From the IMG/VR virus record IMGVR_UViG_3300019360_000011, positions 1-54,593 of that record: DNA of 54,593 nt, one strand, 5' to 3'. Both the position numbers and the translations under genes were made by a program. Origin of the DNA: a virus. This document shows, in pieces, positions 1,351 to 54,593 of this stretch; within the stretch, counting starts at the first letter, position 1; the number at the start of each line of letters is the position of its first letter. The notes beneath the pieces were generated by a model, which searched no databases, was not told the origin of the DNA, and saw nothing but the letters and a program-made list of their open reading frames with translations.

Positions 1351-1712
1351 GCACACCTCAGCGCTTGCTTGACCAGCATCTTCTTCATCGTGAGCCCGCC
1401 ACTCCCACCACCAGCGGCCCACTTGACGCCGAGCGTCTGTGCAGAGTCGGCCGTCAGGACGTCTCCATCCGAGCCCACCGGCAGACGTGCGGTGTCGAGC
1501 CCGTCGTGCGTGAGCAGATCACCCTTGGTCGTGAGCCCGACTCCGGTGCCTCCGGCCGTGTTGATCCACTCAAGCCCGTCGCAGTAGCGCAGCTGTCCAC
1601 CGACGAGAATCACGCGGTTCAGATACTCTGGGCCAGGCTCCGGCTCCTCTCCGAGCGCGTACGCCGGGATGGCCGCGACCCCGAGCCGGACCGGCCGCTT
1701 GAAGATCGGCAC
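1347..1712 (-). CDS. Small fibre-like virion protein
   Basis: 121 residues starting with GTG at 1712, which shares one base with the TAG stop of the MuF gene. The motif TKGDLLTHDG, the segment DTARLPVGSDG and the segment GVKWA form a well-known phage fibre or collar repeat. The C-terminus MKKMLVKQALRCA is basic. The gene overlaps the start of the next fibre gene by four bases. It probably provides an attachment point for the two larger proteins downstream; this is inferred from order and composition. Confidence 0.75.
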   Translation of the reverse strand: MPIFKRPVRLGVAAIPAYALGEEPEPGPEYLNRVILVGGQLRYCDGLEWINTAGGTGVGLTTKGDLLTHDGLDTARLPVGSDGDVLTADSAQTLGVKWAAGGGSGGLTMKKMLVKQALRCA

Positions 1713-3019
1713 TAGCCTCTGCCTCTCGGGACGAACAGATCCTCGTAGCAGTCACAGTGCGGGTGCGCGGGCGGAGCCTCGATCTCTCGTCCATCGGGCA
1801 GCTCCCAGACCCCGAAGAGCCCGATCGAGGTTCCGACCATCTCGTCGCAGATCACGGGGCAGCTGTCGCCTCGAGGATGCCACACCCTCTCGACGTTGCT
1901 CGGCAGGTCTTCCGCGCGCCAGATCTCGAGCTGCGCCAGACTCCGCGCACGCCGGAGCTCAAAGGAGACGATCGACTGGGCGCGCGCGAGCAGCAGTCGG
2001 CGCTCGTAGCGGTCGGCCCAGCCTCGGACCTGCGAGTCGGTCAGACCGTTCCTCGGCACACGAACCGAGAGCAGCCCGTTCTCCACCGTCGTGCCGCCCT
2101 GTGCTCCCCGCAGACGAGCGACAAAGTTGGCGATCGCCTCGTCCTGCGCGGTGTTCGGCTCCAGCTGCCGCGCGATCCGCCCCGCCAGGATCGACTCGCT
2201 CTGGCCGGTCACGAGGCCACCGGCGATCATCCCTCGGAACACGTCGCGCTGCGCCTCGCTGAGGTCCGCGAGCTCGAGACCGTTGCGACGCACCCAGCGC
2301 GCGGCGATCGGGTCGACCTCGACGCGAGAGGACCGACGCGCGACGCGCCACTCGCTCATGTCACGGAGGGTGACGCCTTGAGCGCCACGCGCGCAGGGAG
2401 CTACCTCTATCTTGATGCCACGATCCTCCAGGTCATCGATCTCTTCCTGCGTGACAGGGAACGTCGGACGGCCCTTGCTCTCGACACCATGCTTGCACTC
2501 CGGCAGATGGATCACCGCACGGAAGTTCACACCTGTCATCACGACACCGATGGCACCCTTCGGGATGGCGAGGTCGCCTACCTCGCCAGGACGACCACGA
2601 TGCCCGTGGTTCCCTGAGCCAGACCCGCCCAGCAGCCGCAGCCCGTCCACGATCGCGTGCTGGAGATCCGTCGAGCTCTCGAAGACGTCCAGGCCGTCGA
2701 TCACGATCGCGAGAGCGCTCGCGCGCTCGGACGTCGGGGCCACTCCTCCGAGCGAGTTGACGTCAGCGAAGACTCGATGGATGTCGTCGTCAGACGTGGC
2801 GTGGATCTCGAGACGCCCGATGTCGGTGACTAGCTTCTCCCATCGCCGCTGACGCCGGTCCTCGCGGTCTCCGCCCGGAGAGCTGCCGCCGATCTCGCCG
2901 GGCCTGCCGGCGTGCCCGAAGTTGCCGGAGCCTGGCCCACCCGCGACGCGAGGCTGCGCCGACAGGCGCGGAACGACCGCCCGGTAGCGCACCTCGGAGC
3001 GGAGAGCCCGATACCTCAT
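1712..3019 (-). CDS. MuF-like head morphogenesis (minor capsid) protein
   Basis: 435 residues, ATG at 3019, overlapping the portal stop by four bases. The C-terminal third resembles the Mu gpF domain: an arginine-rich helical region (LARAQSIVSFELRRARSLAQ), then VWHPRGDSCPVICDEM and the closing PPAHPHCDCYEDLF with His/Cys residues. MuF proteins join portal to capsid and are injected or act in head assembly. Two copies of a glycine-rich motif, GSGNFGHAGRPG near residue 30 and GSGNHGHRGRPG near residue 130, precede it; a third copy is in the head protease. The order terminase-portal-MuF supports the call. Confidence 0.88.
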   Translation of the reverse strand: MRYRALRSEVRYRAVVPRLSAQPRVAGGPGSGNFGHAGRPGEIGGSSPGGDREDRRQRRWEKLVTDIGRLEIHATSDDDIHRVFADVNSLGGVAPTSERASALAIVIDGLDVFESSTDLQHAIVDGLRLLGGSGSGNHGHRGRPGEVGDLAIPKGAIGVVMTGVNFRAVIHLPECKHGVESKGRPTFPVTQEEIDDLEDRGIKIEVAPCARGAQGVTLRDMSEWRVARRSSRVEVDPIAARWVRRNGLELADLSEAQRDVFRGMIAGGLVTGQSESILAGRIARQLEPNTAQDEAIANFVARLRGAQGGTTVENGLLSVRVPRNGLTDSQVRGWADRYERRLLLARAQSIVSFELRRARSLAQLEIWRAEDLPSNVERVWHPRGDSCPVICDEMVGTSIGLFGVWELPDGREIEAPPAHPHCDCYEDLFVPRGRG

Positions 3020-4464
3020 CCCGCGCTCTGCTCCCCTGGCGCGGTCCCGTCGGCTCCGACCTGCGTCGGGTCAGCGTCCTCCGGCAGAGGCTTCAGCCCG
3101 CGCTCCTTGCGCACGGCGTTGATGCTCGCGATCTTGTCGGCCCGCTTCTTCTCGTCCTCCACCGCCTGCTTTCCCTCGAACTCCATCAGCTGCTCGGGAG
3201 AGAGCGGCTCGAGGCGCAGCACGCGGTCTCGGATCTCGGCGGGCAGCACCACCGGACCACCGGCTGACTTGCTCAGGCCGGACCAGTCCTTCGCGATGGT
3301 GGAGCGCTCGTTCTGGGTGAGCGACTCGATCTCCGGCCACCGCACCTCGTACTCGGTCGGAGCCGGCAGCGCACCGTGCTCGATCAGGGTGTTCACGAGG
3401 GGACGCACGATCATCGGCTCGGCGTAGTCGGAGCGGCGGTCCGTGACGCGCGTGTCCCAGTTCTCGCGGTCCTGCGTGCTCGCCAGCTCGCCACGCTCGC
3501 TGCCCATCAGGATCCGCTTCGGGATCCCCGTGCTGCCGGAGACGAGCCCGAGCAGCCCGTCGAGCTGGTTCGCGAAGTTCGACACGTCGCTGCCGAGCGG
3601 CGTCACCTCCATGCCGCGCGTCAGCATGGTGCGGCGCATCTGATGGACGAACTCGTCCATCTGCTCCTTCGTCTTCTGGACGTCCGGCTCCGACATCTCG
3701 ACGTCCTTCTCGAGGTTGAACAGCAGGCCCTGGTGGACGCGCAGCCAGAAAGCCTCGCTGCCACCGCCGCTCACCTTCTCGAGGTCGTCGAGGAAGTTCC
3801 ACACCGGAGCGAGGCGCGCGTCCCCGAACACCCGATCGTCCAGCGTGTCCTCCGCGACGTGGATGAGCCGCGTCCAGTGCACGCGGACGCTGAACGCCTT
3901 CTGCTTCATCGCCCCGCTGATCGCGCGTCGCGAGAGCGTGTACATCGTCGGGAGCCCGAATCGCGCGTTCTCGGGGTCCTCCTCGTACGTCGTGATCACC
4001 GCCTCGTCCTCGCCGTAAGCCTGGAGGTAGAGGACGTCCTCCTGCGAGGACATCTGCTGAAGCTCCTCGCTCAGATTGCCTGGCGCTCCGATCAGCAGCA
4101 CCGCGTAGCGTCCGAGCCCGACGAGGACGTCCAGCCGCGAGAGCGCGGCCCACACGCCGATGCGGTCGTTCAGCGCGACCCACGCCTCCTCGAACGGCGT
4201 GCTGACCTGGGGATCCTGGTCCTCCACCAGCTCGGCTCCACCGCGCCACGTCGCCTCGGGGTACGCGCGCGCCACGCGACGCGCGATGCCGTTGCGCTCG
4301 TAGCGCGAGCGGAAGTCCGTCGGGCGCAGCACGCGCTGGTACCCGAGCGCCTCGTACAGGTCCCGCTTGCCGCCGAACGTGATGCCCGCGCGGCTCGCTA
4401 GCCCAGCACGGCTGATGATGTCGCTCAACACCCGGAGCGGGGCCATCTGGAACAGCTTCGCCAT
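3016..4464 (-). CDS. Portal protein
   Basis: 482 residues, ATG at 4464, immediately after large terminase and before MuF, the classic order. The N-terminus resembles the DUF1073/HI1409-type portal family: LYEALGYQRVLRPTDFRSRY followed by NGIARRVARAYPEATWRGG. The middle holds VGLGRYAVLLIGAP and GLLGLVSGSTGIPKRILMG. The acidic and basic C-terminal tail is predicted to be flexible. The product would form the dodecameric ring at the capsid vertex, the docking site for terminase and the tail neck. Both ends overlap neighbours by one to four bases, indicating translational coupling. Confidence 0.9.
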   Translation of the reverse strand: MAKLFQMAPLRVLSDIISRAGLASRAGITFGGKRDLYEALGYQRVLRPTDFRSRYERNGIARRVARAYPEATWRGGAELVEDQDPQVSTPFEEAWVALNDRIGVWAALSRLDVLVGLGRYAVLLIGAPGNLSEELQQMSSQEDVLYLQAYGEDEAVITTYEEDPENARFGLPTMYTLSRRAISGAMKQKAFSVRVHWTRLIHVAEDTLDDRVFGDARLAPVWNFLDDLEKVSGGGSEAFWLRVHQGLLFNLEKDVEMSEPDVQKTKEQMDEFVHQMRRTMLTRGMEVTPLGSDVSNFANQLDGLLGLVSGSTGIPKRILMGSERGELASTQDRENWDTRVTDRRSDYAEPMIVRPLVNTLIEHGALPAPTEYEVRWPEIESLTQNERSTIAKDWSGLSKSAGGPVVLPAEIRDRVLRLEPLSPEQLMEFEGKQAVEDEKKRADKIASINAVRKERGLKPLPEDADPTQVGADGTAPGEQSAG

Positions 4465-5798
4465 CAGAGTGCTCCTCCGACGATCCTCGAGCGACGCGTC
4501 TCCTCGATCGCGTACCGAAGCGCGTCGATCAGGTGGTTGCTCTCGTCGACGAGGATCGGCATCACGACGCCGCTCAGCTGGTCGACCTTATAAGAGTAGT
4601 ACGTCAGCTCGTTGATGAGGTTCTTGCAGCGCGGATGAACGATGATGTCGTAACTCTGGAGGAACGCGATGCCCTCCTCCACGCTGTTCGCTCCCTTGAT
4701 CGAGGGACGCATCCGGCGATACCCGTGGCGCTGGAGGTGGCTGATCGTCTCCGGCCGCGCGCTGTCCGCCGTGACCACCTCCCCACGCGCGACGCCGTGC
4801 CCGGGGCGACGACAGTGCGTCGGCGCCACGTCGCAGCTTCCCTCACACGTGAGCCCGTCGAAGAAGTGCGGCGTGTTCTCGATGTCGAGCCCAACGCGAT
4901 AGCGCTCGTAGTCGACGCACAGCGTCCGACTGTCCTTGAAGAAGCAACGCACCATCGTGGTCGGGTCCGTCGCGAAGCCCCAGTCCGACCCGTACAGGAA
5001 ACGCTTGCTCTCCGACACGAACTCCTCGACGCGCCAGTTCTTGAAGACGCGCGCCTCGCTGATCTTGCGGTACTCACCCTCCCACACGTGCGCCTTCTTG
5101 TCCGGGTCACGACGCTCGTCCCACGCGATCTCGTCCTTCATCTCCTGCGGGAGATACGGATTGTCGCGCCACGACGTGCGCACCGAGATCGCGGACGGGG
5201 GCGGGACATCTCCGCGGAAGAACTCGTCGATCGGGTCGGTCGGGTCGATCGGGTTCCACGAGGCCCAGATCTCGCTGCCCTCCTTACGGATCGTGGGACG
5301 CAGGAGGTCCAGGCTACGCCGAGAGAGGCTCTGCGCCTCCTCGACCCACGCGACGTCGTAGCCTTCCAGCGACTTCAGCGAGTCGGCGGTGTGGTCCTGC
5401 ATGCCCTGGAAGATGATGACTCCCCCGCTGCCGTTGACGCTCGACTGGATCGACGTGTTGAGAGTCCTGAAGCGACCGCGATAGCCCATCGCGACGATCT
5501 TGTCCTCGATGAGCCGCTTCACCGACTGCTCCAGGGAGCGCTGGATCTCGCGGACGCACACGACGCGCAGAGATGGCTGCTCGACACAGCGTCGCACGAG
5601 GTACTCCGCGAAGAAGTGACTCTTCGCCCCGCCCCGACCGCCGTACGCACCCTTATAGCGTGAGCGCGCCAGGAGCGGCTGGAACGCCGGCAGCACGCGC
5701 GTCGGCCACTCCGCCGCAGAGAGCTGGCGCTGACGAAACTCGTCGTAGCGTCGGTCGGCCACGTCGTCGAAGTCGAAGTCGAGGACGGCCGAGCTCAA
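4464..5798 (-). CDS. Terminase large subunit
   Basis: 444 residues, the usual size for PBSX/SPP1-type large terminases. The Walker A motif GGRGGAKS is at residues 53-60 and the Walker B motif DVAWVEE at 148-154. The coupling region WASWNPIDPTDPIDEFF and the nuclease-domain start YGSDWGFATDPTT (first metal-binding Asp) follow, with further acidic residues near the C-terminus (DALRYAIEE). It packages DNA into the procapsid using ATP and cuts the concatemer. An unusual Cys/His-rich insert (C-E-G-S-C then THCRRPGH) sits in the nuclease domain. It overlaps the putative small subunit by four bases. Confidence 0.95.
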   Translation of the reverse strand: MSSAVLDFDFDDVADRRYDEFRQRQLSAAEWPTRVLPAFQPLLARSRYKGAYGGRGGAKSHFFAEYLVRRCVEQPSLRVVCVREIQRSLEQSVKRLIEDKIVAMGYRGRFRTLNTSIQSSVNGSGGVIIFQGMQDHTADSLKSLEGYDVAWVEEAQSLSRRSLDLLRPTIRKEGSEIWASWNPIDPTDPIDEFFRGDVPPPSAISVRTSWRDNPYLPQEMKDEIAWDERRDPDKKAHVWEGEYRKISEARVFKNWRVEEFVSESKRFLYGSDWGFATDPTTMVRCFFKDSRTLCVDYERYRVGLDIENTPHFFDGLTCEGSCDVAPTHCRRPGHGVARGEVVTADSARPETISHLQRHGYRRMRPSIKGANSVEEGIAFLQSYDIIVHPRCKNLINELTYYSYKVDQLSGVVMPILVDESNHLIDALRYAIEETRRSRIVGGAL

Positions 5799-6298
5799 GG
5801 GGTCACCACCGTGGCCGAGACGTCTATGGGAGGTAGCGCAGACGCGCTCTGCGCGGCGACGAGACGGTTGCGCGCCAGCTCGCGGATCTTGAAGAGCTCC
5901 TCCGACTCCTCAGGAGTGAGGTACTCGATCCACGCGCTGCGTCCGTCGTCCACGCTCACGCTGGCCTTCATCCCCATCTGCGGCGTCCGATCGAGCAGCG
6001 CGATCAGCGCCCGGATCTTGGTCTCGTCGTTCCTCGGCATCCCGCGACCGCAGAGCACGCACGGGTCTTCCTCCGGAGAGTCCTTCGTGAACTCCTCGAG
6101 ACGCTCGGAGAACGCGAGAGCGTTCGCCTCCAGCCACTTCAGTGCCTCTCGTGTGGTGCTCCTCGGTCCGCCCGGGACTGCGCGTCGCGGATCGAAGCCC
6201 GGACGGAAGAGATGCGCGGGTCTCGCTGACTGGTTGCTGTCTGGAGGCACACTCGGTCCGTCCTCGCGCACTGGCGTCGTCGTCGGACCAACGTTCAT
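5795..6298 (-). CDS. Putative terminase small subunit
   Basis: 167 residues with no strong family signature. The position directly upstream of the large terminase, with a four-base overlap, suggests the DNA-recognition subunit of packaging. It has a proline-rich N-terminus, a CVLCGRG zinc-knuckle-like segment near residue 80 and helices rich in charged residues. The ATG at 6298 lacks a clear Shine-Dalgarno sequence. The frame stays open upstream to 6373 and includes plausible coding (LYIGQTFG) behind an AGGAG at about 6360, but no ATG, GTG or TTG is available there. The iteron block just upstream would fit a small-terminase binding (pac) site. Confidence 0.6.
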   Translation of the reverse strand: MNVGPTTTPVREDGPSVPPDSNQSARPAHLFRPGFDPRRAVPGGPRSTTREALKWLEANALAFSERLEEFTKDSPEEDPCVLCGRGMPRNDETKIRALIALLDRTPQMGMKASVSVDDGRSAWIEYLTPEESEELFKIRELARNRLVAAQSASALPPIDVSATVVTP

Positions 6299-6795
6299 CT
6301 CGGGGACGAATGGTACGCCGAACGTTTGCCCGATGTAAAGGAAAATATTCCGACGACTCCTAAGTCATACCCACCCTACTGGAGTTAGGACCGGCCACCC
6401 ACCTGAAAGCAGGAGTACTCGTGTGCGCCCTTTAATGAAGACGCGCGCGGGCGCGCGCGGGGGGGGACCAAACCTCGGCGGCATTGGGCGGTAAAGACTC
6501 GATAGAGGACGCCACCCATTACCGCCGAGTCGGCGGCATTGGGCGGCATTGGGGAACCTCGGCGGTATTGGGGAAACCCGAGGTTTTCTCGTTACCACCC
6601 TCATTTCATCCTCTATCGAGTCTTTACCGCCCAATGCCGCCCAATGCCGCCCAATACCGCCGAACCATACCACATCCCTAACTCACTCATACTATTAGTA
6701 TAGAACCAATACCGCCCAATGCCGCCGAGCTATCTACACGGGACCCCGCCGCGCACACCCCCATCACGGGGCGTAACCGGGGACCCTGTCGTGAG
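6299..6795. promoter_or_regulatory. Non-coding iteron and inverted-repeat block (origin or packaging-site candidate)
   Basis: About 500 bases without a convincing gene, between the end of the replication genes and the start of the terminase genes. It holds six exact copies of ATTGGGCGG or its complement (6483, 6538, 6627, 6637, 6647 and 6712), three of them spaced exactly 10 bp. Two variants ATTGGGGAA lie at 6548 and 6567. A 15-base palindrome, CCGCCGA-G-TCGGCGG, is at 6522-6536. A stem AACCTCGG/CCGAGGTT at 6555-6585 is followed by TTTTCTC. GC-rich alternating CGCG is at about 6451-6470. Iterons next to replication and terminase genes suggest an origin, a pac site, or both. Confidence 0.6.
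6477..6641. repeat. 33-bp perfect inverted repeat enclosing iterons
   Basis: The left arm 6477-6509 and right arm 6609-6641 are exact reverse complements over 33 bases, separated by 99 bases. Each arm includes an iteron and the segment TAAAGACTCGATAGAGGA. As single-stranded DNA or RNA this would form a long stem crowned by the 6522-6536 palindrome and the 6555-6585 hairpin. Confidence 0.9.
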
Positions 6796-8028
6796 TTACA
6801 GCTCTTCGGTGGGCTCCGGTCCGAGCTCTGTCTGGACCTCGACACCGGGTCTCGCCCAGATCGCGCGGGGTGGAAATCCTGTCGACATGCGCGACAGGCC
6901 GAGCGCCTTGCGGGCTCGCTCGACAAGACGCTCGCTGTGGTGCGCCTTCTTCGCAGCGTCTTTTATGTCGCTGGACCAAGCCCACCCGCTCTTCGTCTTC
7001 TCCATGAAGGACCGCAACCACTCTACTGCGTCGTTCGTCTTACCGGCGTTATTCGTAGCCACGTCATAGACCACATCGTTGATGGAGATCTCGCTCACCC
7101 CTTGCCACACGACGCGAGAGGTCCGCAATGCAAAGCCAGTCCCATTCACCTCAGTGCCCTCGATCGTGAAGAGCATCGTGGGTGAGTCATCACCGCTCAG
7201 TCCGGTGTTATTCTTCGGGACGCCGAGCAATCGTTGCTTGGGATTGTTCGGGTCACGTACGACGTACTGGACCGCACGTGATGTCGCTACGAACGCTCGG
7301 CTGCCCATCACGGTGGTCAGTGGGTCGCTGGCGTTGCTCTTGTTCACATGGATAACGCCGATGGTGGTCACGCTTGAGTCCTGGCTCAACTTCGCTATCG
7401 GCTCCAGTCCCTGGCGCACGGTCTGATCCTTGTGGCTGTCCAGCCTGCTACTCAGCCGCGACATGAGCGGATCAAGCAGCATCGCCACAGCGCGGGTCTC
7501 TTCCACCTTAGCCTGGATCTGTTTGATGTCGTCGGGTAGACTGAGGGTGAACTCGCCGATCTCCTCGACGTGCACGGTCGCCTTATAGACTAAGCCGAGA
7601 TCTGCTCCTGCTGCCATCAAGCGCGGAACCACCGTCTTAGGCCAGCTGTCCTCTGTCGCGACGATGATGACCGCGCGCGGTTCGCCGAAGAAGTGCCCGT
7701 GTAGCTGGCCTCGTGTTACGCGGGCGAGAAGCTCGTATCCGAGCGTGGACTTTCCCTCGTTCTCGCGCCCGGCGATCAGCGTCAACTCCCCGAGGGGGAT
7801 GCGTCCGATAGGCTGATCCCCAAAGTGCCGATGGAAACGTGGCGGGGGTGTCTCCTCCCAGAACCACAACGTCTGTTCGGGCCGGATCGAGTCGGCTCGG
7901 GTGAGTACCACCTTCCGCGCGGCGCTCTCCTCCTCACGCACCTGGCGTTCGGCGAGCTTATCGATGCGGCGGCTGACGATGCGCTCTTTCAGCTTCTTAG
8001 TGAGAGTAGAGTCCTCGACCTTTACCAC
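6796..8028 (-). CDS. RecA-fold AAA ATPase, probable replicative helicase (RepA/DnaB-like)
   Basis: 410 residues. The Walker A motif GRENEGKST is at residues 87-95, followed by VIIVATEDSW (near 120-130), the Walker B-like strand AVAMLLDPLMS, and VTTIGVIHVNKS (motif H4-like). This order matches AAA_25/RepA-type hexameric helicases that often follow a primase-polymerase in phages. The C-terminal 70 residues (WAWSSDIKDAAKKAHHSERLVERARKALG) look like a winged-helix tail. It overlaps the primase-polymerase gene by seven bases and is the last replication gene before the iteron block. The likely role is unwinding DNA at the phage fork; a RadA/recombination role is the alternative. Confidence 0.85.
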   Translation of the reverse strand: MVKVEDSTLTKKLKERIVSRRIDKLAERQVREEESAARKVVLTRADSIRPEQTLWFWEETPPPRFHRHFGDQPIGRIPLGELTLIAGRENEGKSTLGYELLARVTRGQLHGHFFGEPRAVIIVATEDSWPKTVVPRLMAAGADLGLVYKATVHVEEIGEFTLSLPDDIKQIQAKVEETRAVAMLLDPLMSRLSSRLDSHKDQTVRQGLEPIAKLSQDSSVTTIGVIHVNKSNASDPLTTVMGSRAFVATSRAVQYVVRDPNNPKQRLLGVPKNNTGLSGDDSPTMLFTIEGTEVNGTGFALRTSRVVWQGVSEISINDVVYDVATNNAGKTNDAVEWLRSFMEKTKSGWAWSSDIKDAAKKAHHSERLVERARKALGLSRMSTGFPPRAIWARPGVEVQTELGPEPTEEL

Positions 8029-8915
8029 TTGACACCCCGCATGAGCCTGTCCACGATGCTGTCGTCCACGAGGGTGTCGAGCACCTCGCTGTTGATCTCG
8101 CCGACGCCGAGTGCCCTCCCGATCGCCCGGCGATGGTCACGGTCGCCAGGGGCGTAGGCACAGCCGTAGCGTCCGTCGTTGCCTAAGAAGGCGTTGTCGC
8201 GGTGGCGGTCGTGTCCCTCCTCGTGGCAGCGCGGGCACTGGAACTTGGCGCCCTTGGAGCGGCGACGGTGGCCCGGCTGGCGCCGAGCGCGCTCGTGCAT
8301 CTCCGCCGGGGTGGGTCCGCCCCAGGGCTCCTCCTCGGGGTGTCCCTCGGTAGACTCTGGGATCCAGGCGGGTCGCGCCTCGGTGGTGAGGTGCTCGAGC
8401 CACGCGGGTGGTAATACGTAGGCAGGCAGCAGCGGGTCGCCGATCCAGCGGTAGTGGCCTCCGGCGGGCACCCCGCGCTTCTCGCTCCCTGGGTACGGGG
8501 ACGGCGGCAGGAGCACCTGCTGCCTCGGGCCGCGGATCACGTCGCCCACCCGCTCGTCGCCTAACGCGAGCCGAGAGCTCAGGCTCACCTCGGGACGATG
8601 GAAATAGGCGTGCGTGCCGCCGCTCGGGCTCGTGCTGGTCAGGGGGATCGGGCCGAGCAGTGAGCAGAGGGTCTCGAGCGACCCGACGACGTCGAAGTCG
8701 AGCACTACGAGGCCGCTGGTGTAGACGTCTAGCCCGACGCCTCCTCCGCGCGACAGGTGGTTCCTGACTGCTCTGGGGTCAGAGGTCGAGCACTCCTCCC
8801 AGGTCCGGCCCGAGAGCAGCCTCTTGGTCCCCGGCTCCAGGAGGACCGCCGTCCAGTGTCGGTTCCGAATCGCGTCGAGAGTGGTGGCTAGGTCGTTCTC
8901 TGCCTGTGTCTTCAT
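8022..8915 (-). CDS. Bifunctional primase-polymerase (AEP, Prim-Pol type) with C-terminal zinc finger
   Basis: 297 residues, ATG at 8915 behind GAGGACGTCTC. The N-terminal part has archaeo-eukaryotic primase hallmarks: GVGLDVYTSGLVVLDFDV (catalytic DxD), then STSPSGGTHAYFHR (SxH-type motif) and DVIRGPRQQVLLPPSPYPG. The C-terminal part contains a metal-binding cluster, FQCPRCHEEGHDRHRDN and YGCAYAPGDRDHRRA, resembling a primase zinc ribbon. It would synthesise primers and perhaps short DNA for the helicase encoded directly downstream. The adjacency and overlap with the RecA-fold helicase support a primase-helicase pair. Confidence 0.85.
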   Translation of the reverse strand: MKTQAENDLATTLDAIRNRHWTAVLLEPGTKRLLSGRTWEECSTSDPRAVRNHLSRGGGVGLDVYTSGLVVLDFDVVGSLETLCSLLGPIPLTSTSPSGGTHAYFHRPEVSLSSRLALGDERVGDVIRGPRQQVLLPPSPYPGSEKRGVPAGGHYRWIGDPLLPAYVLPPAWLEHLTTEARPAWIPESTEGHPEEEPWGGPTPAEMHERARRQPGHRRRSKGAKFQCPRCHEEGHDRHRDNAFLGNDGRYGCAYAPGDRDHRRAIGRALGVGEINSEVLDTLVDDSIVDRLMRGVKW

Positions 8916-11341: not shown

Positions 11342-11682
11342 GGCTTCTCCTCTCCCTGCTGCCCACAGATACGACGCTCGAAGAGCATCTTGGCCTTCCA
11401 CTCGGCCTCGTTCAGGAGGCTCATGTTGCTCGGGACGTCACAGCCGCCACAGGCCAGCGGCACGATGTGGTCGACGTACCAGCCGCTCGGCTGGGCTTTC
11501 AGTCCGAGCCCACGTAGGAAGAGCCGCTTCCTGGACTCGCTCCTGACGAGCGTGCCGTGCACGTCACGGACGCGGCACGTCACGTCGGGAGTCGCCATCC
11601 CTGCCGGCCAGCGGCGAGCCGGCAGGTTGATGACGCGGAGCTCGAGAGCGGCTTGGAAAAGAAGCGCCGTGGCGGTCAGCAT
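11338..11682 (-). CDS. HNH endonuclease
   Basis: 114 residues, ATG at 11682. Residues 70-100 hold the HNH signature: VDHIVPLACGG (first His pair), then CDVPSNMSLLNEAEWKAK with the central Asn and trailing Lys/Glu. This resembles single-domain HNH nucleases of phages, which cut DNA with a beta-beta-alpha-metal fold. An N-terminal hydrophobic stretch (MLTATALLFQAALEL) precedes it. It lies among replication-arm accessory genes rather than by the terminase, so it may be a free-standing homing-type nuclease or a DNA-processing nuclease. Confidence 0.85.
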   Translation of the reverse strand: MLTATALLFQAALELRVINLPARRWPAGMATPDVTCRVRDVHGTLVRSESRKRLFLRGLGLKAQPSGWYVDHIVPLACGGCDVPSNMSLLNEAEWKAKMLFERRICGQQGEEKP

Positions 11683-11861
11683 ACCAGCTCCTTCTCGGGG
11701 ACGACCTTGATGCCAGTCATGTCGATCCCCTCCTCGTCGATGACGTGGTCGTAGCCAGCCTCGACCAGCTTTCGATGGATCTCATCGAAGGCAGGAGCCG
11801 AGAGCTCCAGCTCCACGACCGTGTATGTCGATCTCACGCGGGGTCGTATCGGTTGAGCCAT
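11676..11861 (-). CDS. Hypothetical protein
   Basis: 61 residues, ATG at 11861, overlapping the HNH gene by seven bases. It opens with a basic segment (MAQPIRPRVRS), then a beta strand (TYTVVELELSAP) and a helix (FDEIHRKLVEAGYDHVI), ending in IKVVPEKELVC. This alpha/beta pattern resembles other small phage proteins of unknown role. No specific family is recognised. Confidence 0.6.
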   Translation of the reverse strand: MAQPIRPRVRSTYTVVELELSAPAFDEIHRKLVEAGYDHVIDEEGIDMTGIKVVPEKELVC

Positions 11862-23074: not shown

Positions 23075-24066
23075 GGCGTCCCTCGCTTGACAGGGTTGGA
23101 AAAGTCGGTGGTGGCTCTGTAGTCGTAGAGCCCGTCGGACCAGGTGTAACCATGAGCCGAGAGGACTCGACCCAGGTTCTTCAGCCTCTCGCTCGGATCC
23201 CAGCCCTGTATCTCTCCGAGAGCCCAGACCGGAGAGAGCAGAGGACGGACACGCATGTGATCCGTACGGCGTTCTCCCCAGTACTCGGCGACCGTTCGCT
23301 CGTAGGCGAGCTCGCTGTCGAGAGAACGCCCAGGGAACTGACGCTTCGTGCTGAAGCTGGTCTTGTACTCGCAGAGGAGGACCTCCAGCTCGAAGTAAGA
23401 CATCTCTGGGTACATCGCCTTGAGGATACCGGCCCGCTCGTTGGCAAAGTATAGAGCAGACGGAGAGTCGTCATGCACGTCGTAAGACGCGACGTCTGAG
23501 CCGAAGATCAGGTTGAGCCCAGCACGAGGACTCCATCCGCCCTTCGGTCTGATGTCTCTCACAGGTGCAGAAGCCAGCCCAAGACGATACCAGATCTCGC
23601 AGAGCTTGGTCGCCGCGTAACGCCCGACGTGAGGGAGCCGCATGGCGAAGCGCCAGAGCTCATCGAATGACATCCGGTGCATCTCTCCCGACATTGCGGC
23701 GTCAGTCGTCGGGTCAACCCCGTCACAATAGTCGAGGAAGCGATCTCCGTGCGTCGGGTCCAGCCCAACAGTCTTGCGTTCTCGTCTGAACCGGATACCA
23801 TCCCAGTGCTCCCGGACCCACGCGTGGAGCTCAGAAGGACGAGGTGGGGTTGGAAACCGTGTCCAGATGGCCTCGGCGGACGGGACGTTGTACACGCCGA
23901 CGTATAGCGCGGCGCGCCAGACCTTCTCGACGAGCGGGAGGTCTTTGCAGAGGTAGACCACCGCACGCATGTGCGGATCTGGACCACCAGTCAAGCGCTC
24001 GTAGTGACAGAACTCATTGAAGAACTTGAGATGGTTCACCACACCATCCTCGAGAATTTTCGTCAT
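23071..24066 (-). CDS. Candidate amino acid:DNA transferase (ADDT-like)
   Basis: 331 residues from ATG 24066, overlapping the polymerase stop as ATGA. It has features I associate with the amino acid:DNA transferase family of hypermodifying phages: ERLTGGPDPHMRAVVYLCKD near residues 23-42, WRAALYVGVYNVPSAEAIW, HAWVREHWDGIRFRRERK, and MRLPHVGRYAATKLCEIWYR. In those phages the enzyme attaches an amino acid to activated 5-hmdU in DNA. No PLP or radical-SAM tailoring enzyme is visible nearby. The family call is from memory of sequence pattern and should be tested by profile search. Confidence 0.65.
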   Translation of the reverse strand: MTKILEDGVVNHLKFFNEFCHYERLTGGPDPHMRAVVYLCKDLPLVEKVWRAALYVGVYNVPSAEAIWTRFPTPPRPSELHAWVREHWDGIRFRRERKTVGLDPTHGDRFLDYCDGVDPTTDAAMSGEMHRMSFDELWRFAMRLPHVGRYAATKLCEIWYRLGLASAPVRDIRPKGGWSPRAGLNLIFGSDVASYDVHDDSPSALYFANERAGILKAMYPEMSYFELEVLLCEYKTSFSTKRQFPGRSLDSELAYERTVAEYWGERRTDHMRVRPLLSPVWALGEIQGWDPSERLKNLGRVLSAHGYTWSDGLYDYRATTDFSNPVKRGTP

Positions 24067-25895
24067 GCTGCTTTCGCCTCCTGCCAATTCTCTCCGACGC
24101 CGACCGCCCAGAGGAGCGGCACGACGGTCTTCAAGACCTGTGTGTTCAAGATCTCCTCGACCATCCGTGCTGCCTCACGATCAGGCACATCCCCGTTGAC
24201 CTCATCGTGGACGAGGAAGCGAAGCTTGAACCCGGTCTTCTTCCTCGCTCGGTGCAGCATCAGAGCCTTCGTCTTCATCTCGTCGGCGGCAGAACCCTGG
24301 ACGACGCCGTTGAGCGCGGCGTAGGTCGGCATCCCCGGTGGAAATCGGCGACGACGACCGAGCTTCGTCTTCACGTAACCCCGGGACTCTGCCAGGCTCG
24401 AGGTGTACCGGAGGAGGCGCTCCGCCTCGGGGAAGGCGCGGTCGTACACCGCGATGAACCTCTTAGCCTCGCTCTCCCTCAAACCGAGCATCCGAGCGAT
24501 CTTCTTGAGCTGCGCTCCGTAGATCTTCGCGAAGTTCGTGTCTTTCGTCTTCTCCCTGGTGACGCTCGGGAAGATTGGCTTGATCATCTCGTTCATCACG
24601 ATGTTATGGAAATCCGTCCTCGGGTCACGAGCGTATGCCGCCAGGACCTTTGGAGGCTTAGCGTAGTCGGCGAAGAGACGATACTCGATCTGCTCGGCAT
24701 CGGCCGACAACCAGAGTCCCTCACCGGGGACGAAGAGCTCCCGAACGATATAGCCTTGGAGCTCCGTGTCGTTCCCTACCGACTGGAGCTGCTTCTTGCC
24801 AGCCACCTGCTGGATGTTGACGCCTTCGTCCGGGTCCGTCCCGAAGGAGCTGCTGGAGTATCGCCCGCTGCGTGTTCCGCCCTCATCGTCTATCGGCATC
24901 TGATGGAGGCTGTAACGCAGGATCCCGTTTCGGCGTAGCTCCTCCCGATACCTCACTAGAAACTTGCTTCGCAGGCTGGCCAGCGATCGGGCGCGGTTCA
25001 CGAGGTTGACGACCGGGTGGTCGACCTCGCGCATACGCGCGCGACTGAAGGAGATCTTCCCCACCTCTTCCGGGTCGTCGCTGATCGGAGGTGGCAGCTG
25101 TAGGTGCTCGAAGAGACGGATCATGTCAGGACGAGAACGCACGTTGATGTTTAGACCGGTCAGTCGATGGATCTCCCAGAGGGTTGCGACGTAGTCCTGC
25201 TCTGAGCGTGTGAGCCAGAGGTCGAGCTTCTCCTCGTTCAATGGAGCGCCGTTCCTCATCATGTCACAGGTCACGTAGACCAGCTCGTCCTCAAGCTCTC
25301 GGACTGCCTCGAGACCCTCCTGCTGCATGACCGGGCGAAACTTCGCCAAGAGCTCCACACAGAGGAGCGTGTCGCGACGTGCGTACTCAGCCACGTCTGC
25401 AGCATGGTAGTCCCGCATCCGACTCTTGTTCAACCCGACGTCGAGCTTCCCGTAACCGAGATAGTGCTTGGAGACAGCGTCGAGACTCGTCCGTGTCCGA
25501 GTGTCGTCAATCAGAGCAGCGTGGTTCCCGACGTCCATCAGTCGGCAGCCCTGTGCCTCTAGGTCGATGCCCCAGGCATAGGCCATGTTGACGTCAAAGG
25601 GGAGGTTGAACCCGATGACAGTCTTGTCACGCAGCTCCTGTCGCATCCATCGCTTGATGGAGCTCTCGTCAAGATTTCCACCAGCGTGTCCAGTCGGTAG
25701 ATACCAGCTTCGTCCATCGGCAGTGGCGACAGCGACCCCGACGGGGAGGTCTCCGCCCCACCACCGAAGACCGGTGGTCTCTAGGTCAAGATAGACCTCT
25801 GAGACTCCGGAGAGGTCCGGCGGGCTCTGAGGACGCCAGTCGCCGGGGTCGGTGGCCGGGGCGATCTCGAAGAGGCTACGCTGGGCGGGCGGCAC
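24063..25895 (-). CDS. Family A DNA polymerase with 3'-5' exonuclease domain
   Basis: 610 residues from GTG 25895. The exonuclease motif YLDLETTGLRWW is at residues 35-46. Polymerase motif A is DAEQIEYRLFADY, motif B REKTKDTNFAKIYGAQ, and motif C FLVHDEVNGDV. No 5'-3' exonuclease domain is present, as usual for phage enzymes. Residues 5-9, QRSLF, resemble a sliding-clamp-binding motif. The gene starts almost at the predicted transcription start, so its mRNA may have a very short leader. It is the presumed replicative polymerase and, if the modification pathway is right, incorporates 5-hmdUTP opposite A. Confidence 0.95.
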   Translation of the reverse strand: MPPAQRSLFEIAPATDPGDWRPQSPPDLSGVSEVYLDLETTGLRWWGGDLPVGVAVATADGRSWYLPTGHAGGNLDESSIKRWMRQELRDKTVIGFNLPFDVNMAYAWGIDLEAQGCRLMDVGNHAALIDDTRTRTSLDAVSKHYLGYGKLDVGLNKSRMRDYHAADVAEYARRDTLLCVELLAKFRPVMQQEGLEAVRELEDELVYVTCDMMRNGAPLNEEKLDLWLTRSEQDYVATLWEIHRLTGLNINVRSRPDMIRLFEHLQLPPPISDDPEEVGKISFSRARMREVDHPVVNLVNRARSLASLRSKFLVRYREELRRNGILRYSLHQMPIDDEGGTRSGRYSSSSFGTDPDEGVNIQQVAGKKQLQSVGNDTELQGYIVRELFVPGEGLWLSADAEQIEYRLFADYAKPPKVLAAYARDPRTDFHNIVMNEMIKPIFPSVTREKTKDTNFAKIYGAQLKKIARMLGLRESEAKRFIAVYDRAFPEAERLLRYTSSLAESRGYVKTKLGRRRRFPPGMPTYAALNGVVQGSAADEMKTKALMLHRARKKTGFKLRFLVHDEVNGDVPDREAARMVEEILNTQVLKTVVPLLWAVGVGENWQEAKAA

Positions 25896-52032: not shown

Positions 52033-54084
52033 CTACGACGCCTTCTCGATCCCTCGAGCGATCCGGATGGACCTCGACAGCGAGGGAGCGGCCGGGATCT
52101 CCTCCTCGGTGACGGACGACGCCGCGCGCGGGACGCCCGCGCCCGAGTAGTACTTCTTCGGAACGGACGCGGTGATCAGCTTGGTGATCTTCTCGAGGGA
52201 CTCGAGCGGCATGGCCTTGAGATCCGCCTCGCTGTACGCCTCCTGCTTGACGCCCGCGCACGCGGCGACCAGCTCCGCGTGACGAGCCGTATCCCTGGCC
52301 TTCTCGCGATCCAGGACGAGCTTCACGTCCGGGAACATCGACAGGAACTTCTGCCGCTGCTCTTCGGGGGTCGGCTCCGGGACCGGCTCCGGCTCCGTCG
52401 CCAGCGCCGTGAGACGCTCCTCGGACAGCTGCTCCAGGATCGGAGCGTCCGCCGCCGCGAAGCGGGACTTCTTCTGGGCCAGAATCTTCTGGACCAGCTC
52501 CTTCTTCGTCATGTCGTTCTCCTTCCCTGCGGGCGTTCCTTCCGTCTTGCCGCCACACCCGCAGTTGCCTGCGGCGGCACGCTCCTTCTTCCCTTCCACC
52601 ATCGCACGGGCCTCTTCCTCCGTGTCGTGGCACATCTCCTTCCCGTCGGCCGTCTTGTGGCAGTAGCGGCTACCCTTCTCGTACACGGCGCTCTTCTCAC
52701 CCTTCTTCTTGAAGGGCGGAGCCGCACCCGGGAAGGCCGCTGCGTTGACCGGCTCGAACCGGGTGATCTGCTGGACCTCCTCGCCACCCTCGACGTCGAG
52801 CTCCACGCCACCGGCATCCGTCATCCGGTAGTCGCAGCGGTGCAGCATCAACGCGCCCTCCGGAGCCGAAGCGTAGATCACCTTGTGCTCCTCGGGATAG
52901 TACGAGTCGACCCCGATGAAGCCCGGGACGGTGGCCATCAGCGCCTGGTGCAGTGCCGTGCGCAGCTCATCGGCCGTCTGGCCATAGTCCTCGAGGACCT
53001 TCGGGTCACTCGGGACGAAGCTCTCGAGGAGAGCCTTGAACTTCTCGAGGATCGTCATCGACTGTCCCTCCAGATTCTTGAAACCTTTCTGTGCGAGAGA
53101 GGACGTGCTCTCTTGATACGGCGTGCGCTGACCGGTGTCGATCGTGTAGATCAAATCGCGACCAGGCGTCTTCTCGATCTTCGTGATGCGCCCCGATCGG
53201 ACCTGGCTGTCTCCTGATGGCTTCCACTGGATGCGAGATCCGCGCTGCAACTTTAGCGCGCCGTCGTATCGCATATCGTAGGAAGCACCACCGTCTCTGG
53301 AGAAGTCACCCTTCTCGTCATCCCCCCCGCCTGTTCCTGGCGCGCTCCCACCGATCTGTCCCGGACGTCCAGCGTGACCGAAGTTCCCGCTTCCCTTCCC
53401 ACCCGCCGCGCGCAGTGCCCCGCAGCCCATCTCGATGCTGCACGCTCCGACCACTCCCTCCTCGAGGAAGGCGAGGTGGTCGGGGACGATGTCCTGCCAG
53501 ACCGCCTCGTAGCGCAGCCCGCCGTCCGCGCCGGGCTTCTGGTCTAGCGTCACGAACACTCCGACGCTGACCTCGGTCTGCTCCCCACGCTGGAGCGCGT
53601 CGAGAATCGACCCCGCCCCTGCGGAACGAGCGCGCTCGGGGTCGACATACGCGTCCATCTTCAGCTTTCCGCCGTCCACGCGCGCGTTGAAGATCGTCCC
53701 GATCCTGTGCTCCTCGAGCACGGTCGGCTCGTTTGCGCTGATCTGTCGGCCGTCTCGAGACGGGTGCCCGAACATGATCGGACGACCGTTCCAACCCTGT
53801 GGAGCCTGCTCGAGATCCTCGAGTCGGACCAGCTCCGGCTGGAGGGAGTTGTGCGCGTGGATCACTCCCGGCACGAGCGCGATCACCGGGACCACGATGT
53901 GCTCTCGCCCCTCGAAGATCGCGGTCCGCAGCAGGCCGCTCTGCAGGGCATGGAGCTCGCGGTGCTTGCTGGCCTCGATCGCTGCGAGCTGCCTCTTTGC
54001 GTCGGCCTCCGTCGCGTGACAGGCGATGCGCCGCTGGCCGCTCTTGTCGAAGACGCAGTAGCGTGAACCGACCTTCTTGATCAT
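52033..54084 (-). CDS. Head maturation protease fused with scaffold-like C-terminus
   Basis: 683 residues from ATG 54084 (SD GGAGAGAGGCAG); a longer frame from 54162 would overlap the fibre gene. The N-terminal 250 residues are a DUF2213-type phage protease: RLEDLEQAPQGWNGRPIMFG, GTIFNARVDGGKLKMDAYVD, EVSVGVF and HLAFLEEGVVGACSIEMGCG. A glycine-rich motif (GSGNFGHAGRPG) follows near residue 260. The C-terminal half is helical and charged, suiting a scaffold. GSRYC repeats at about residues 6 and 480. It would cleave and release scaffold during capsid maturation. Confidence 0.85.
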   Translation of the reverse strand: MIKKVGSRYCVFDKSGQRRIACHATEADAKRQLAAIEASKHRELHALQSGLLRTAIFEGREHIVVPVIALVPGVIHAHNSLQPELVRLEDLEQAPQGWNGRPIMFGHPSRDGRQISANEPTVLEEHRIGTIFNARVDGGKLKMDAYVDPERARSAGAGSILDALQRGEQTEVSVGVFVTLDQKPGADGGLRYEAVWQDIVPDHLAFLEEGVVGACSIEMGCGALRAAGGKGSGNFGHAGRPGQIGGSAPGTGGGDDEKGDFSRDGGASYDMRYDGALKLQRGSRIQWKPSGDSQVRSGRITKIEKTPGRDLIYTIDTGQRTPYQESTSSLAQKGFKNLEGQSMTILEKFKALLESFVPSDPKVLEDYGQTADELRTALHQALMATVPGFIGVDSYYPEEHKVIYASAPEGALMLHRCDYRMTDAGGVELDVEGGEEVQQITRFEPVNAAAFPGAAPPFKKKGEKSAVYEKGSRYCHKTADGKEMCHDTEEEARAMVEGKKERAAAGNCGCGGKTEGTPAGKENDMTKKELVQKILAQKKSRFAAADAPILEQLSEERLTALATEPEPVPEPTPEEQRQKFLSMFPDVKLVLDREKARDTARHAELVAACAGVKQEAYSEADLKAMPLESLEKITKLITASVPKKYYSGAGVPRAASSVTEEEIPAAPSLSRSIRIARGIEKAS

Positions 54085-54097
54085 GTCTGCCTCTCTC

Positions 54098-54593
54098 CTA
54101 TGTGAGACGATAGCCCAGGGCCGGGATCGGTACGGCGGTGATCGCCGCACCTCCCGATCCAAACGGTGAAGGAAGCGCGGCGAACGCGAAGGCGCGGGAG
54201 ATCCCCACCTGTGGGGCGGCTCCGAAGGTAGAAGGGACCCCGTGGATCGGCCACATGCCAGACAGCGGCAGGCACCGGAGCGTGGCCGCAGCGTCGGAGA
54301 GGTAGACGAGCCAGTAGAGCTGTCCAGGCGTGAGCGCCTGGGACAGCGCGAACGTCTTCACACCCGTCGTGCCGGTGCTGATGCTCCCCGAGTCCGAGAG
54401 CAGCGTAAACGGGTAGATGTCTCCGTCGTTGCCGGTGCTGGAACCACGATTGTTGTACAGGCCGATGCGACCGTTCCCGGCGAGCAGCGTGGTCACCTCG
54501 AACGCGATCTGGTCGATGGTCCCGCCCTTGAACGGGGCCACGAACGGGAAGGCGCGCAGCGTGCCCGCCGATGGAGCCCCGGTCACGAGCGCG
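54098..54593 (-). CDS. Fibre-like virion protein, C-terminal part (same gene as 1..605)
   Basis: This is the continuation of the gene beginning at 605; bases 54471-54593 duplicate 1-123. The C-terminal half contains Gly/Ser/Thr-rich stretches such as NNRGSSTGNDGD and ends in LGYRLT. It has no recognised catalytic motif. The stop lies 13 bases before the start of the head protease gene at 54084, so the two are probably co-transcribed. An internal GTG at 54586 would give a shorter frame but is not needed once the circle is closed. Confidence 0.8.
   Translation of the reverse strand, partial: ALVTGAPSAGTLRAFPFVAPFKGGTIDQIAFEVTTLLAGNGRIGLYNNRGSSTGNDGDIYPFTLLSDSGSISTGTTGVKTFALSQALTPGQLYWLVYLSDAAATLRCLPLSGMWPIHGVPSTFGAAPQVGISRAFAFAALPSPFGSGGAAITAVPIPALGYRLT
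54471..54593. repeat. Terminal overlap of circular contig (right copy)
   Basis: Exact copy of bases 1-123. Joining the two copies restores one 325-residue reading frame that otherwise appears broken at both contig ends. Confidence 0.95.

Follow-up and report, generated by a model that had tools for sequence, protein, structure and literature searches.

A probable replication origin with facing iteron groups downstream of a RepA-like helicase gene in an unclassified phage

We analysed a complete stretch of viral DNA of 54,593 bases (hereafter the window) and identified an iteron array which, judged from the sequence, is probably the replication origin of the phage. Combining the layout of this site with a comparison of about 110 independent relatives, we consider it likely that the array represents a bidirectional theta origin whose facing iteron groups are bound by the C-terminal domain of the helicase encoded at 6796-8028. 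A direct terminal repeat of 123 bp, present at 1-123 and at 54471-54593, indicates that the record is very likely the complete genome, assembled as a circle, of an unclassified phage.

Gene context and anatomy of the array

Read leftward, the gene order is DNA polymerase, Prim-Pol, RepA-like helicase, the gene-free region 6299-6795, a small-terminase-type gene, and the large terminase subunit (TerL) and portal genes. The array is located directly 3′ of the AAA_25 helicase gene, starting approximately 67 bp past its stop codon, and 5′ of the small-terminase-type gene (terS), which follows 179 bp downstream. The genes and candidate signals around it are:

24063-25895, leftward: DNA polymerase gene
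8022-8915, minus strand: Prim-Pol primase/polymerase gene (PF09250, 2.1e-14), overlapping the start of the helicase gene
6796-8028, minus strand: RepA-like hexameric helicase gene, the proposed initiator/helicase (Pfam AAA_25, 7.9e-19; RecA fold)
6853-7083, minus strand: C-terminal winged-helix-like domain of the helicase (residues 316-392), the proposed iteron reader (from the structural model and phrog_10342)
6442-6459, minus strand: GC-rich hairpin, a possible terminator of the replication operon (pattern match only)
6310-6339, minus strand: promoter-like site TTTACA-18-TACCAT before the terminase operon (pattern match only)
5795-6298, minus strand: small-terminase-type protein (in L009 and L010, the closest terminase relatives, its homologues immediately precede TerL)
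4464-5798, minus strand: terminase large subunit (phrog_3717, 4.1e-52)

The same two relatives, L009 and L010, bear on other genes of the window. A short ORF at 11676-11861 has relatives (~50 % identity) that are situated between terL and portal in L009 and L010, indicating that it has moved between genome places. ORFs 1712-3019 and 52033-54162 both match identical stretches of L009, L010 and L090 over short, nearly identical segments (25-35 residues, 60-80 %), which points to a shared repeated peptide segment.

The array consists of two facing iteron groups, its left half being mostly forward and its right half all reverse. The GGCGGYATTGGG unit is present in eight exact copies, four on the plus strand followed by four on the minus strand, and in two copies with one mismatch, all within 6477-6726; the window beyond the intergenic region has no exact copy and only one copy with a single mismatch. 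The elements of the array are as follows:

6474-6729, no strand: whole iteron array, putative replication origin
6477-6488, plus strand: iteron GGCGGCATTGGG, exact
6477-6509, plus strand: left arm of a 33-bp perfect inverted repeat
6515-6526, minus strand: iteron GGCGGTAATGGG, one mismatch
6532-6553, plus strand: two exact iterons at 10-bp spacing (6532-6543 and 6542-6553)
6561-6572, plus strand: iteron GGCGGTATTGGG, exact
6573-6626, no strand: lower-GC centre between the iteron groups, GC 0.44 (genome 0.63)
6609-6641, minus strand: right arm of the 33-bp perfect inverted repeat
6630-6661, minus strand: three exact iterons at 10-bp spacing (6630-6641, 6640-6651 and 6650-6661)
6664-6712, no strand: candidate unwinding element, GC 0.37
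6705-6726, minus strand: two iterons at 10-bp spacing (6705-6716 with one mismatch, 6715-6726 exact)

The details given in the original prediction were all confirmed. The six exact iterons in both orientations are the ATTGGGCGG words at 6483+, 6538+, 6627-, 6637-, 6647- and 6712-, which are found nowhere else in the window and compare with 0.23 expected and a maximum of two in 100 dinucleotide shuffles. The three iterons at 10-bp spacing (6630/6640/6650) are joined by further pairs at 6532/6542 and 6705/6715, and the inverted repeat is indeed perfect over 33 bp, with 99 nt between its arms. The internal 15-base palindrome (CCGCCGAGTCGGCGG at 6522-6536), the CG-rich run (~6441-6466) and the gene-free 500 bp beside the small terminase were likewise present, no convincing gene being found in 6299-6795. 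Only the extent required adjustment: the site proposed at 6477-6720 is correctly placed and the array runs slightly beyond it. The folding of 6465-6740 as single-stranded DNA is far better than that of its shuffles (z -8.6), the array region has no match in Rfam, and a search of IMG/VR for the exact double-iteron pattern identified no other contig carrying it. Ten copies of a short repeat in 250 bp of non-coding sequence, low-melting DNA within it (only one locus in the genome is less stable than the 50 bp from 6662) and adjoining replication genes for an AAA_25 helicase and a Prim-Pol are features of iteron origins.

Association of arrays with the helicase gene

AAA_25 helicases gathered from named phages and plasmids and, by a three-row alignment search, from IMG/VR formed 37 sequence clusters, in which we scored inverted repeats (score at least 16) within a zone of 350 bp around the helicase gene end. 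Such repeats occurred near the gene end in 13 of the 37 clusters versus 1 elsewhere, although the zone makes up 11 % of the sequence. The strongest inverted repeat of a locus was near the gene end in 16 of 25 cases (2.7 expected, p=3e-10; 2e-9 without the window) and, when the test was repeated with the same thresholds on 75 new clusters from bacterial genomes, in 39 of 60 (6.6 expected, p=2e-23), p-values that are best taken as a very strong association because the clusters were built by a k-mer rule only and their loci are related to varying degrees. Direct repeats peaked at a lag of 9 in both sets, with 209 matches against a background of 26 in the first (400-bp window; five of the loci summed have a helicase of another family) and 394 against 77 in the second (500-bp window). 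Intergenic zones are richer in repeats than genes, which would somewhat inflate the figures of both repeat tests and does not explain the 9-bp pitch.

The repeats themselves differ from locus to locus. In L118 the stop codon is immediately followed by (GGACAGATT)n in either orientation, L111 has ACTGAACCA/ACTGAACTG facing AGTTGGTTC, the Microbacterium phage Fransoyer (L143/L144) has TGTCACACC TGTCACTCC TGTCATTCT facing AAGAGTGAC AAGAGTGAC, and the Corynebacterium glutamicum plasmid pCG2 contains an array with ACATACAT/ATGTATGT words at 2376-2641. The cluster K mycobacteriophages and L112, L117, L119 and L140 are without an array, so that its position at the helicase gene end is a common rule and not a universal one. 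Spacing at one helical turn, from which cooperative protein binding on one face of the DNA had been suggested, fits the 10-bp pitch of the window; with a pitch of 9 bp in most relatives, it is not what is conserved. In many relatives, L147, L165, L092 and L178 among them, the iterons extend into the helicase coding sequence upstream of its stop codon. Repeats spaced by 9 bp, the length of three codons, preserve the reading frame there, whereas the array of the window, which has the 10-bp pitch, is fully intergenic.

Loci were also collected by terminase (80 loci) and by small terminase and helicase. Those with a primase-helicase gene before terS have repeats of unrelated sequence with the same build in the same place, including, in L064, GATCAGGCG repeats with a pitch of 9 bp that are separated by an AT-rich spacer from facing CTGATCGGC repeats, arms of ~32-41 bp with ~90-100 bp between them in L017 and L104-L106, and a ~100-bp imperfect inverted repeat in L090 and L091 that differs between these two nearly identical contigs. 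L030 has repeats at 10-bp pitch. The layout extends to primase-helicase genes of another family (phrog_29234/10537), as in L017, L064, L090 and L104. A strong upstream inverted repeat was absent from most other TerL loci; the sequences of L009 and L010 stop within terS or shortly before it, leaving their array region uncovered, and single-query IMG/VR searches with the helicase, terS and DNA polymerase of the window found no relative. L024 and L037 share a conserved 21-bp inverted repeat of the GCGAGTATCAGACTGCCGCC type before the small terminase, ~570-475 bp upstream of the terL match, which is not of the iteron kind.

These loci bear on the alternative that the array is a pac or cos site at which packaging is initiated by the small terminase of 5795-6298. 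Its position 179 bp upstream of that gene would suit such a role, in SPP1 the pac site, at the small terminase gene, contains direct repeats (PMC4737164), and an array is found beside terS in L017, L064, L090, L104 and L108 as well. The array does not, however, go with the terS neighbourhood, recurrent as this is in several viral lineages: similarly built arrays come after the helicase gene on pCG2, on a Streptomyces plasmid, in elements of bacterial genomes and, ~40 kb from the terminase, in Fransoyer, and it is their presence on plasmids free of packaging genes, together with the distance in Fransoyer, which indicates that they follow the helicase and not the terminase. Furthermore, loci with a common layout have terS-type genes of different families, and the small terminase of SF6 reportedly binds pac repeats without sequence preference. 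We regard a packaging site as improbable. Of the two functions originally proposed, replication origin and pac or cos site, the former is thus retained, backed by the two comparative sets and the skew flip described below, while the helicase replaces the small-terminase-like protein of 5795-6298 as the more likely binder.

An equally improbable reading is that of a regulatory region, in which a phage regulator would use the repeats as operators to control the promoter of the late (terminase) operon. The array does sit where the leftward replication genes give way to the leftward late genes, and a TATACT stretch adjoins the right-hand iterons on the minus strand, but the possible terminator and the only promoter-like match stand between the array and terS. 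In relatives, moreover, the array follows the helicase whatever gene comes next and often overlaps the helicase 3′ end.

Strand asymmetry at the array

We compared G with C at fourfold degenerate third positions of leftward genes only, holding the direction of transcription constant. The best single change point is at 7.49 kb (log-likelihood ratio 30.5 versus at most 10 in 300 permutations), with a 2-log-unit support interval of 6086-7945 that includes the array. Skew is positive in 30 of 32 leftward genes on the terminase side and in 3 of the 22 on the far side of the array (p=3e-8), two sides which also differ in functional class, late genes being to the left and replication genes to the right. 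Passing rightward on the plus strand the sign changes from negative to positive, as for an origin, and the far-side change could be placed anywhere in 27-33 kb. The GC-skew switch, put forward originally as a check on the site, was therefore observed with the expected sign; AT skew did not flip at the array, and in Fransoyer the change point of leftward genes falls at 39-41 kb and not at its array (~47.2 kb). Given the confounding of side with gene class, the unflipped AT skew and the Fransoyer mismatch, we take the flip as moderate support for an origin at the array.

Plasmid iteron arrays can also serve copy-control, incompatibility or partition roles, and two different repeat sets coexist in the single locus L198, but for the window a site of this kind, near and not identical with the origin, is the least probable reading of all, as the skew flip and low-melting DNA coincide at the array and partition would be of little benefit to a lytic-type phage that encodes its own polymerase. 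The two sets of L198, of AAGGGAGCA type and GTGACAGC type, are nested between -52 and +208 around the helicase gene end.

The helicase and comparison with known origins

A helicase model built from 23 sequences reached a mean pLDDT of 85.8, the single-sequence model (33.5) being useless. Its modelled core is a RecA fold matching the RSF1010 RepA, DnaB and T7 gp4 helicases (VIA Z about 20), PDB matches that cover the RecA domain. Residues 316-392 are modelled with their helices and strands arranged as in a winged helix (helix-strand-helix-helix-strand-strand). This C-terminal segment matches phrog_10342 'DNA binding protein' (2.2e-5) and the same segment of the Fransoyer homologue has a weak match to winged-helix families; Pfam yielded no HTH family common to the 23 members. 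Together these results are suggestive and not proof; the helicase probably reads the iterons through its own C-terminal winged-helix-like domain.

As the array is a likely bidirectional origin, we propose that the helicase, a RecA-fold hexamer of the RSF1010 RepA/DnaB kind, would bind both facing iteron groups, probably as two oppositely oriented assemblies. The low-melting DNA beside the iterons may then open, one helicase ring would be placed on each strand, the neighbouring Prim-Pol would prime and the phage DNA polymerase would extend in both directions.

The origins of P4, the SaPIs, SCCmec Cch2 and pRN1 are published parallels which the window appears to resemble in layout, the origin lying at the 3′ end of the helicase gene, and from which it differs in helicase fold: theirs are of SF3/D5 type, whereas that of the window is a RecA-fold AAA_25 protein nearest to DnaB, RepA and T7 gp4. 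In SaPI Rep and SCCmec Cch2 the iterons are directly downstream of the helicase gene, as here, and are read by the helicase C-terminal domain, with two hexamers proposed for SaPI Rep and three 5-nt iterons in 23 bp at the Cch2 site (PMC7581432). On our reading, the Cch2 spacing would fit a 9-bp pitch. Those helicases are of DUF927 or D5/Primase_C type, and the array of the window is larger and bipartite. In pRN1 a ~100-bp inverted repeat (stem-loop) 3′ of a prim/pol-helicase-winged-helix gene was demonstrated to be the origin, and a similar stem-loop origin was proposed for phage BIP-1 (PMC4234260). The inverted repeat 3′ of the helicase gene is shared with the window; pRN1, however, has an SF3 helicase fused to prim/pol and no iterons, whereas in the window the helicase is RecA-fold, the Prim-Pol is a separate gene and the iterons are clear. 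In P4, recognition of the origin repeats, unwinding and priming are all carried out by the alpha protein, which has a winged-helix domain (PMC4234260); its primase is Toprim-type and fused, unlike the separate AEP-type Prim-Pol of the window. RSF1010 oriV (RepA/RepB′/RepC; PMC4234260) is similar in combining a RepA-fold helicase, to which the modelled helicase of the window aligns with a VIA Z of 20.3 and an rmsd of 2.3 over 196 residues, with a separate primase and iterons. There a separate RepC binds the iterons, whereas in the window the part that would read the repeats is apparently fused to the helicase as its winged-helix-like domain.

We see an even chance that these loci constitute a widespread origin class without a name, defined by a RecA-fold RepA-like helicase with its own winged-helix reader and by opposed iterons, spaced at ~9 bp, where that helicase gene ends, and distributed over phages, plasmids and integrated elements, mainly of Actinomycetota. 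No earlier description of AAA_25-linked iteron origins was found in the open-access literature searched. If such a class exists and the helicase itself reads the repeats, RecA-fold (DnaB-like) helicases would be able to initiate and self-load without a separate initiator or loader. Few origins of environmental phages are known, and a simple rule, opposed repeats of 8-10-bp pitch where an AAA_25 primase-helicase gene ends, yielded candidate origins at once for phages, for plasmids and for genomic elements, among them cultured phages such as Fransoyer and pCG2 of C. glutamicum.
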